The translations under genes were made by a program, and so were the position numbers. Below, piece by piece: positions 3,570 through 5,096 of a DNA stretch of 39,880 bases; the stretch's first letter is position 1; every line of letters begins with the position of its first letter. The stretch spans positions 1 through 39,880 of IMG/VR virus record IMGVR_UViG_3300036944_001048. The stretch is one strand, 5' to 3'. The notes below the pieces were generated by a model. That model searched no databases. It had not been told where the DNA came from and was given only the letters and a program-made list of their open reading frames with translations. Origin of the DNA: a virus.

Positions 3570-3658
3570 AATACCTGCCGTTCGCCAAGACCCTCTTGCT
3601 GGCAATCTCAGGCGCAAGCGCGCTGGTCTGGTTCGCTGTGGTGTTGGGGCGGCTTTGA
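3566..3658 (+). CDS. 30-residue single-TM mini-protein
   Basis: A GTG start overlaps the previous stop (GTGA) and opens a 30-codon frame ending with TGA at 3656..3658. The product is almost entirely one hydrophobic helix with a short basic start and a Gly-Arg-Leu end. Stop/start overlap and TM composition support a real gene. It is the last gene before the attachment region. Its role is unknown; small single-TM proteins in this position can modulate holin timing. Confidence 0.5.
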   Translation: MKYLPFAKTLLLAISGASALVWFAVVLGRL

Positions 3659-3666
3659 AGGCATCT

Positions 3667-3684
3667 CCCGAAATAGTCCCGAAG
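3667..3684 (+). repeat. Left attP arm-type direct repeat
   Basis: CCCGAAATAGTCCCGAAG matches the copy at 3897..3914 except for the three central bases (consensus CCCGAAnnnGTCCCGAAG). The two copies have the same orientation, lie exactly 230 bp apart and straddle the tRNA-like core. Each contains CCCGAA twice. This is what arm-type binding sites of a tyrosine integrase look like, though binding is inferred. Confidence 0.65.
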
Positions 3685-3739
3685 TCGAAAACGCCGAATG
3701 CCGGAAACGCCTGCAAACAAAGGCTCCGCGTAGTGTGAC

Positions 3740-3786
3740 CAACCAGATTTTAAGTCTGGTGCGTCTACCAGTTCCGCCACGCCCGC
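3740..3786 (-). other. attP: attP core: 5' half of a tRNA-Leu(UAA) gene
   Basis: Read on the minus strand from 3786, the sequence folds as the first half of a bacterial tRNA-Leu: acceptor strand GCGGGCG, the D-arm GGCGGAACTGGTAGACGC, and a perfect anticodon arm at 3743..3759 with loop CTTAAAA (anticodon UAA). There is no T-arm and no matching 3' acceptor strand, so this is not a working tRNA. Tyrosine integrases often use tRNA anticodon arms as crossover sites, and the fragment lies 145 bp past the end of int. I infer that the phage inserts in the host tRNA-Leu(UAA) gene. Carrying the 5' half and not the 3' half is the less common arrangement. Confidence 0.8.
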
Positions 3787-3839
3787 AATTCTCGAAACCT
3801 CGCAAATTCAACGCTTTTCCGCCAGTCCTTCGCGTGTCA

Positions 3840-3856
3840 CCCGAACCCCGTTCGGG
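3840..3856. other. Hairpin within the attP region
   Basis: CCCGAAC, a CCC loop and GTTCGGG form a perfect 7-bp stem. The left arm contains the same CCCGAA core found in the flanking attP repeats, so it may be a third integrase or Xis arm site with an inverted half, and not a terminator: no T-run follows on either strand. Confidence 0.45.
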
Positions 3857-3896
3857 GAACAGAGGGAATACGGCGCACCCGAGCGGAAGCGAAATC

Positions 3897-3914
3897 CCCG
3901 AACATGTCCCGAAG
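3897..3914 (+). repeat. Right attP arm-type direct repeat
   Basis: CCCGAACATGTCCCGAAG, the partner of 3667..3684, lies 16 bp beyond the 3' end of int, on the far side of the tRNA-like core from the first copy. Confidence 0.65.
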
Positions 3915-3930
3915 CGTGTTGCCGAGGCGT

Positions 3931-4932
3931 TCATTTCCGCGCCTTGTGCATGGTGGTGAGCGCGTCCCGCAGATCGTTCTCGGTCGCGTGGGCATAGCGC
4001 ATGGTCGATTGGATCGAGGCGTGCCCCAGCATCCTCTGCGTCAGCTTCAGGTTGCCCGTGCTGCGCAACAGCGTTGTCGCTGCATGGTGGCGCGCCCCGT
4101 GGATTGCACGCGCCCCCAGCCCCGCCTTGGCCGCTGTCGTGCGCAGGCGGCTCATCAGCCCCCAATAGCTGTACCCGAACACCGTCTCGTCAGCCTGGCG
4201 TGTCGATGCCATCGCGGCCAGCGTGCGGGCGTGTTCGGGCATCAAGGGGATGGTGAGCGTGTCCCCCGCCTTGCGGTTGCGCAGGGTGAGGCGGGCGCCG
4301 ACGCCGTCCACATCGGCCGGCAGGAAGAACAGCTCCCCGAACCTAAGCCCATAAGTCAGCATCAAATCCAGCGCGAGGCGGGGCACGGGCTCCAGCCCGT
4401 CGCGCCACGCGTTGATTTCGGCCTCGCTGTATTCCCGCACAATGCCCTTGGGCTCTTTGAGCCTGACCGCCCGCCAGTCGATCGCGGGCAGGGATTTAGC
4501 GCCCCACACCTTGCGGGCGCGGTTCAGGAGCGGGCGTAGCGTATGGTCGATAAGGTCGCGGTTTATCGTGGCGGGGGCAGGCGTGCGGCCCGGATACTTG
4601 CGGCGCCTGCGGATGGCGTCTGCTATGGTCGCGGTGTCGATCTCGCGCAGAAGCTTGCCCTTGCCGACGCAGTCCAGCACGACGTCAATGCGCCTTTGCA
4701 GGTCCACGGCTGCGTTAAGCGTGTGGTTGACCTCGTCATAGTAGCGGCTGACGGCAATCTCTAGCGTGATGTCGCCGGCGTCCTGACCCGTGCCGGTCGC
4801 GGCTTCAAGTCGGCGCGCTCGCTCCACGGCTTCAGCGCTGCGGCGCGTCTCCTGGCCGGTCGAGCCATGGTAACGCCGCCCTTTGTAGACGAAGTCATAG
4901 TGCCAGTATCGGCCCTTTGGGTAGACGGACAT
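3931..4932 (-). CDS. int: Tyrosine-recombinase integrase
   Basis: 333 residues. The catalytic set of tyrosine recombinases is complete: R197 (TYGLRFGE), K221 (NRKAGD), H278/R281 (HGARHH), H304 (LGHAS) and the nucleophile Y313 (MRYAHA). The N-terminus (about 1-28, Tyr/Gly/Arg-rich) is the short beta-strand arm-binding region common in phage integrases, and 55-150 is the core-binding helical domain. It recombines attP with the host attB, and its 3' end lies beside the tRNA-derived attP. Its first 172 bp overlap the Xis-like gene, and it is the last gene of the leftward operon, so its transcription should follow the leftward early promoter unless a separate promoter exists. Confidence 0.97.
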   Translation of the reverse strand: MSVYPKGRYWHYDFVYKGRRYHGSTGQETRRSAEAVERARRLEAATGTGQDAGDITLEIAVSRYYDEVNHTLNAAVDLQRRIDVVLDCVGKGKLLREIDTATIADAIRRRRKYPGRTPAPATINRDLIDHTLRPLLNRARKVWGAKSLPAIDWRAVRLKEPKGIVREYSEAEINAWRDGLEPVPRLALDLMLTYGLRFGELFFLPADVDGVGARLTLRNRKAGDTLTIPLMPEHARTLAAMASTRQADETVFGYSYWGLMSRLRTTAAKAGLGARAIHGARHHAATTLLRSTGNLKLTQRMLGHASIQSTMRYAHATENDLRDALTTMHKARK

Positions 4933-5096
4933 GCTTTGGCCTGTGCGATGAAGGCGGCGACGTCAGCGGGATCAAAGCGGAGGCAGCGTTTACCAATCCT
5001 TACCGCGCGCAGGGAGCCAGCGTCCACAAGAGCGCGAACGGTCTTGGGGTCCACGTCGAGAAGGGCGGCGACTGCCTCAGTTTTCACAAGGCTCAC
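4761..5096 (-). CDS. xis: Excisionase-like HTH protein
   Basis: 111 residues, GTG start overlapping the previous stop (GTGA). Residues 1-53 form a winged-helix/MerR-type excisionase domain (HTH_17 class): TEAVAALLDVDPKTVRALVD is the helix-turn-helix and RIGKRCLRFDPADV the wing. The rest is a basic, Arg/Pro-rich tail that lies almost entirely within the 5' end of int in another frame. A small DNA-bending recombination-direction factor directly before int is the expected arrangement, and the overlap would couple their translation. An AlpA-type transcription regulator is the alternative. Confidence 0.85.
   Translation of the reverse strand: MSLVKTEAVAALLDVDPKTVRALVDAGSLRAVRIGKRCLRFDPADVAAFIAQAKACPSTQRADTGTMTSSTKGGVTMARPARRRAAALKPWSERADLKPRPARVRTPATSR

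Follow-up and report, generated by a model that had tools for sequence, protein, structure and literature searches.

Most elements that integrate into tRNA genes leave the promoter of the host gene in place. The locus described here raises the question of how a tRNA gene is rebuilt and transcribed when the element brings the 5' half of the gene. It lies in the 39,880-base virus record of a marine phage of the P22-like podovirus type, which was analysed over its whole length and is called the window below; podovirus-type genes in it are P22_portal, Phage_capsid_3, terminase, lysozyme and a repressor-like gene. On the downstream side of a tyrosine integrase gene (int), whose stop codon is at 3931, the window carries the 5' half of a tRNA-Leu(UAA) between repeated sequence words (Table 1). 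We think it very likely that the locus serves a temperate P22-like podovirus as its attP, with an integrase directed at the anticodon arm of tRNA-Leu(UAA), and that the phage-borne 5' half rebuilds the tRNA, which would then probably be transcribed by read-through.

Table 1. Features of the attP region and the adjoining genes in the window
Feature	Positions	Strand	Basis or remark
Putative arm-site pair CTTCGGGACTATTTCGGGA, lysis-gene side	3666..3684	-	Word also in L003, L004, L012 and distant relatives
Putative core-type sites, the flanking stem	3755-3759 / 3743-3747	-	Position beside the anticodon loop
5' half of tRNA-Leu(UAA), nt 1-43; bacterial-type half of attP	3744..3786	-	Host tRNA identity
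Anticodon loop CTTAAAA, presumed 7-bp crossover (overlap) region	3748..3754	-	Where identities end
Phage leader, upstream of the would-be rebuilt tRNA	3787..3930	-	No host-type promoter recognised
Further CCCGAAC / GTTCGGG words, possible extra arm sites	3839..3856	-	Sequence words
Putative arm-site pair CTTCGGGACATGTTCGGGG, between int and tRNA half	3896..3914	-	110 nt upstream of tRNA start
int, tyrosine integrase, 333 aa	3931..4932	-	PF00589 and phrog_1; same strand as tRNA half
HTH_17 protein, likely excisionase	4761..5096	-	PF12728; overlaps int start

The tRNA half starts at 3786 on the minus strand and spans, down to 3744, the 5' strand of the acceptor stem, the D arm and the anticodon arm minus its last base. 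Over these 43 nt it is identical to the tRNA-Leu(UAA) of nine uninfected Hyphomonadaceae genomes, and base 44 differs. The initial annotation had rightly recognised an attP with the 5' half of this tRNA, but had drawn the tRNA stretch at 47 nt and let it reach past the anticodon arm, while the identity to the host covers only 43 nt and stops one base short of the end of the anticodon stem. The identity does run past the anticodon loop, contrary to the finding that the annotation had named as fatal to its reading, a host identity that ends before the anticodon arm. It is confined to the 5' half, unlike in a classical 3'-half attP, and what accompanies it is typical of a 5'-fragment attP: int lies alongside, the host tRNA is present from its 5' end to the crossover, and arms are repeated on both sides. 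No complete tRNA gene was detected by ARAGORN in the 39,880 bases. The same tRNA-Leu(UAA) stretch recurs in many viral contigs among the matches listed, as could be expected if the phage had once had the complete tRNA gene and the half were what decay left of it, without a role in integration. Against such an origin stand the adjacent int, the flanking arms, related prophages that are cut exactly here, and the half tRNA, of some isotype, that all int relatives with enough sequence have at the same place. We hold it to be highly improbable, and a vestigial tRNA gene was rejected on the int and arm context and the common cut point.

Five IMG/VR contigs possess a near-identical int (92-100%) and the same attP, and the tRNA-Leu(UAA) 5' half is kept in L002-L006. 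L003 and L004 have a different 5' half of tRNA-Leu(UAA), with the stem GCAGA, and the same phage 3' side TCTGGTTGGTCACAC; in L005 and L006 the identity with the window ends at the anticodon loop CTTAAAA, and 39 nt (3786..3748) are common to all. As tRNA halves are thus swapped at the anticodon loop between near-identical phages, the crossover is most probably located at this loop. In related prophages, attL and attR match only as far as GACTTAAAATC.

The core is flanked by the direct repeats CCCGAAATAGTCCCGAAG (3667-3684) and CCCGAACATGTCCCGAAG (3897-3914). These 18-bp repeats at a start-to-start distance of 230 bp had been pointed out before, and indeed both sequence and spacing are kept in relatives, with 230 also in L003-L006 and 221 in L048. 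A symmetric framing of the core, as formerly stated, is wrong, since the repeats are direct and lie ~63 bp (left arm) and ~142 bp (right arm) from the anticodon loop at 3748-3754. Between 3640 and 3939, CCCGAA/TTCGGG words occur six times; 0.23 would be expected per 300 bp, no other part of the window has more than three, and six was reached in 0 of 20,000 mononucleotide shuffles. The additional CCCGAAC hairpin of the annotation exists as words at 3840-3856 (CCCGAAC-CCC-GTTCGGG), but as a hairpin it is broken in L003 and L006, and only the word CCCCGAAC is kept among the relatives. The arm word CTTCGGGACTATNTCGGGA is also found, exactly, beside integrases that are only ~30% identical to that of the window (L283, L285, L290, L280, L284, L286) and that use other tRNAs, namely 5' halves of tRNA-Val or tRNA-Pro, which suggests that recognition of the arms has been conserved much more strictly than the choice of target.

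The outcome of integration can be seen in related prophages at the tRNA-Leu(UAA) site, whose integrases are 52-61% identical to that of the window and which were found in four Hyphomonadaceae (G001, G002, G023 and G093). In each of them, one end is an intact tRNA-Leu(UAA) that consists of the phage 5' half and the host 3' half, and the opposite end is the orphaned host 5' half with its own host upstream sequence. In G002, where a single contig contains both ends, the complete tRNA-Leu(UAA) is at 16.7 kb, with its 5' side running into the phage arms, and the 5' half with host upstream sequence adjoins int at 61.07 kb; the ends are on two contigs in G001 and on one 3.2-Mb contig in G023. The empty site in uninfected relatives of G001 is a contiguous arrangement of a thiolase gene, an intact tRNA-Leu(UAA) and downstream sequence, and it matches the host flank at each G001 end. 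The proposal that the phage gives the rebuilt tRNA a new 5' half and a new upstream region is thereby borne out for the related prophages, at both of their ends and in comparison with the empty sites. UUA codons require tRNA-Leu(UAA), which is their only reader, and in G001, G002 and G023 a single intact copy each was detected, the rebuilt one. It follows that the phage-borne leader must support transcription in these three lysogens.

Tyrosine integrases and an attB inside tRNA genes are likewise found in tRNA-dependent lysogeny of the mycobacteriophage style, in which the host tRNA is broken and complemented by a phage tRNA; there, the core is too short for rebuilding the tRNA and a complete cognate tRNA gene is carried by the phage (PMC10865867). 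The window lacks such a complete gene, and its 43-nt identity suffices to rebuild the tRNA, compared with a core of ~10 bp. This alternative was rejected for these two reasons and is hardly credible here.

The host tRNA promoter stays with the orphaned host 5' half and would direct transcription into the prophage (L073, L074, L085; window 3657-3747). This would be antisense to int in the related prophages and to lysis genes in the geometry of the window, and a regulatory side effect is possible. G093 contains a third copy of the tRNA-Leu(UAA) 5' half (L083, G093:C8:39369-39392) with different upstream repeats, GGTCCAATTCGTGGTCCA; it appears to belong to a second element, which has a different integrase and likewise brings a 5' half. 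At L080 (G031:C23), the 5' half of tRNA-Leu(UAG) comes after an integrase with 42% identity, and the Leu(UAA) gene of G031 is intact (L082). In the G023 prophage, a partial tRNA gene (L081) seems to lie just inside the rebuilt end, on the opposite strand ~150-200 nt upstream of the rebuilt tRNA-Leu, and resembles a 3' half with anticodon CAU.

The genomes with a matching host tRNA were reached via the genus of G093, and all nine uninfected matches are from this genus, which belongs to the family of the Hyphomonadaceae MAG G002. Their upstream sequences have no similarity to the window leader. The 43-nt identity to the host tRNA with unrelated upstream sequence makes a Hyphomonadaceae host, with the genus of G093 as the best match, likely but not proved. 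A search of 385 Alphaproteobacteria with 44 nt of the phage sequence and at most two mismatches gave one match, a Leu(CAA) tRNA. Among 105 genomes of the likely host family, there was no exact window-type prophage, lysogen or junction. The annotation had suggested a search for tRNA-Leu(UAA) genes joined to the integrase end, together with a comparison of attL and attR, and had regarded prophages at another site as contrary evidence. An exact window-type prophage was found at no site in these genomes, whereas the search did yield the related prophages, in which the rebuilt tRNA is at the int-distal end.

We infer that the window phage itself integrates like these relatives, at the cut sites deduced above. 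A crossover in the anticodon loop would join the phage tRNA 5' half to the host 3' half, so that the int end of the prophage would hold the rebuilt tRNA, preceded by ~145 bp of phage leader and, further upstream, by int. The host 5' half and its promoter would be left at the far end, antisense into the lysis genes. The rebuilt tRNA would be transcribed by read-through from the co-directional int operon; this is the simplest source of the tRNA because int has the same direction and ends ~145 bp upstream. What speaks against this model is that the rebuilt tRNA is int-distal in the related prophages of which both ends are seen, while it is predicted to be int-adjacent in the window phage.

The attPs of the integrase relatives have three geometries. 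In the first, classical form, the attP has a 3' half on the int-distal side. In the second form, a 5' half of tRNA-Pro, Val, Thr or Leu is int-distal and on the strand opposite to int. In the third form, the 5' half is int-proximal and on the strand of int; among the relatives, this is found only in the window, L002-L006 and L012. Carriage of the 5' half changed several times among 50 related attPs, and a quick tree built from 52 integrases requires six changes among the three states, four between 5' and 3', and two origins of the third form, which are forced by the starred branches. The G002 prophage and the window have a common gene order (Hc3-like gene, fibre genes, orf437-like gene, attP, int, HTH gene), within which int is on the opposite strand, and the tRNA half with its arms is reversed in the window compared with the G002 prophage. 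The arm upstream of the tRNA half is 104-127 nt away in the second form and 110 nt away in the window, and this near-equal distance indicates the same cassette, flipped. In the second form, the int frame continues through the near arm and stays open for 367-413 residues. In the window, the 333-residue int ends immediately before the arm, inside the stretch TGAAC...GGCAACAC, which flanks the int-distal arm in L048. Judged from these sequences, the window clade has undergone an in-place inversion of its attP cassette next to int.

The annotation had proposed to examine 3787..3840 for a promoter of the rebuilt tRNA. A two-box promoter model was trained on 31 tRNA upstream sequences of G023, separate from the test genes, and replaced a model with test genes in its training set, which was discarded; L010, which has no arm motif of this integrase family, was left out of the final test. 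In the second form, the 90 nt before the 5' half score like host genes, with p <0.1 in 12 of 16 cases and a combined p of ~1.5e-9, where p-values are from mononucleotide shuffles and the sequences are related and hence not independent. A typical site is CTTGCCC-17-TAAGGGC, 10 nt before the tRNA. The 3'-half controls of the first form gave no promoter signal with the same model (combined p 0.73), and neither did the third form (window p 0.81, L006 0.60, L012 0.31). The host-trained model finds a promoter in most int-distal 5'-half relatives, but none in 3787..3840 of the window, and none within 90 or 250 nt of the leader (p ~0.5-0.8). A sigma-70 scan of the leader gave no promoter-like site, the -35 word CTTG does not occur in it, and in RNA folding it does not stand out from shuffles (z -0.48). 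The single terminator-like match between int and the tRNA half overlaps the arm and is no more than shuffled sequences lead one to expect. As the window clade yielded no promoter, transcription reading through from int probably supplies the rebuilt tRNA there.

It has to be weighed, with a chance only a little short of even, that the same attP has a promoter of its own in the leader (3787-3930), either non-consensus or dependent on a phage factor, so that the tRNA would be independent of int transcription. The leader block 3798-3838 is almost invariant in six phages beside a variable stretch, and the Leu(UAA) genes of the host genus that matches best get scores of just 5-7 from the model, which means that a promoter may be missed. 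Neither the host-trained model nor the sigma-70 scan finds a site, however, and the block is equally explicable as a binding site of Int, Xis or IHF; possibly it is one of these or a promoter of an unfamiliar type. Staying with read-through, it is possible, although less likely than not, that the inversion of attP, in the window clade and separately in L012, replaced a phage-borne tRNA promoter by int read-through and so coupled the tRNA supply to it. If so, the essential tRNA-Leu(UAA) of lysogens would come from the integrase operon, and its supply would be tied to phage gene expression.

A homologue of the HTH_17 gene adjoins int in G002, G023 and G093, and L138, L141 and L142 have an int-HTH-attP module that is 49-56% identical to that of the window, with few or no other detectable genes in common, which suggests that the module moves between phages as a unit. 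The lysozyme of the window (396 aa, 1434-2624) has, past its Phage_lysozyme domain (25-167), a long C-terminal extension that is proline-rich and then hydrophobic, possibly a membrane anchor.

Capture of a 5' half is of a known but uncommon kind, as the Islander collection and the plasmid pTN3 indicate. Of the 3919 islands mapped in Islander, 3760 have a 3' tDNA fragment and 159 a 5' fragment (PMC4383910). Like the window, the 5'-fragment islands supply the 5' part of the tRNA with an anticodon-centred crossover, and the host 5' fragment is displaced to the far end, as in our model (PMC4383910). This class was listed without promoter analysis (PMC4383910), whereas here one integrase family comprises 3', 5'-distal and 5'-proximal forms. 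In pTN3, ~41 bp of the 5' part of a tRNA-Leu are common to attP and attB, and the rebuilt gene is cut off from its promoter (PMC5495485); according to a review on archaea, integrases of the pTN3 type work with the 5' half, the tRNA being expressed from the integrase promoter, and this is rarely encountered in bacteria (PMC8371274). There, the element is an archaeal plasmid with attP inside int, which is split on integration (PMC5495485, PMC8371274), while the phage attP of the window is downstream of the int stop codon and int is left whole. The cyanophages P-SSP7 and S-TIP37 resemble the window phage in being marine and short-tailed with an attP downstream of int that matches a host tRNA-Leu, and differ in being T7-like and without stable lysogens (PMC8776855).

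Sphingopyxis phage VSN-002 and Synechococcus phage Ssp-JY42 have integrases of the same family (36-44% identity), similar arm words and an attP downstream of int. Unlike the window, VSN-002 has an int-distal 5' half of tRNA-Pro with a host-type promoter, and Ssp-JY42 a classical 3' half. The VSN-002 integrase (L009:2501-3619, MZ127829.1 gene_22) is named 'telomere resolvase' in GenBank, but its homology and the adjoining attP with the tRNA-Pro 5' half point to an ordinary tyrosine integrase. As far as open papers go, what seems to be new is that the cassette is flipped in place and that promoters differ in this way among members of one integrase family. This family is a natural series, from the 3' rebuild through the 5' half with a phage-borne promoter to the flipped 5' half without a visible one, and it indicates a tendency of elements that seize the 5' part of an essential tRNA gene to come with a host-type promoter. 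The window may represent a bacterial case of a tRNA supply that depends on phage transcription.
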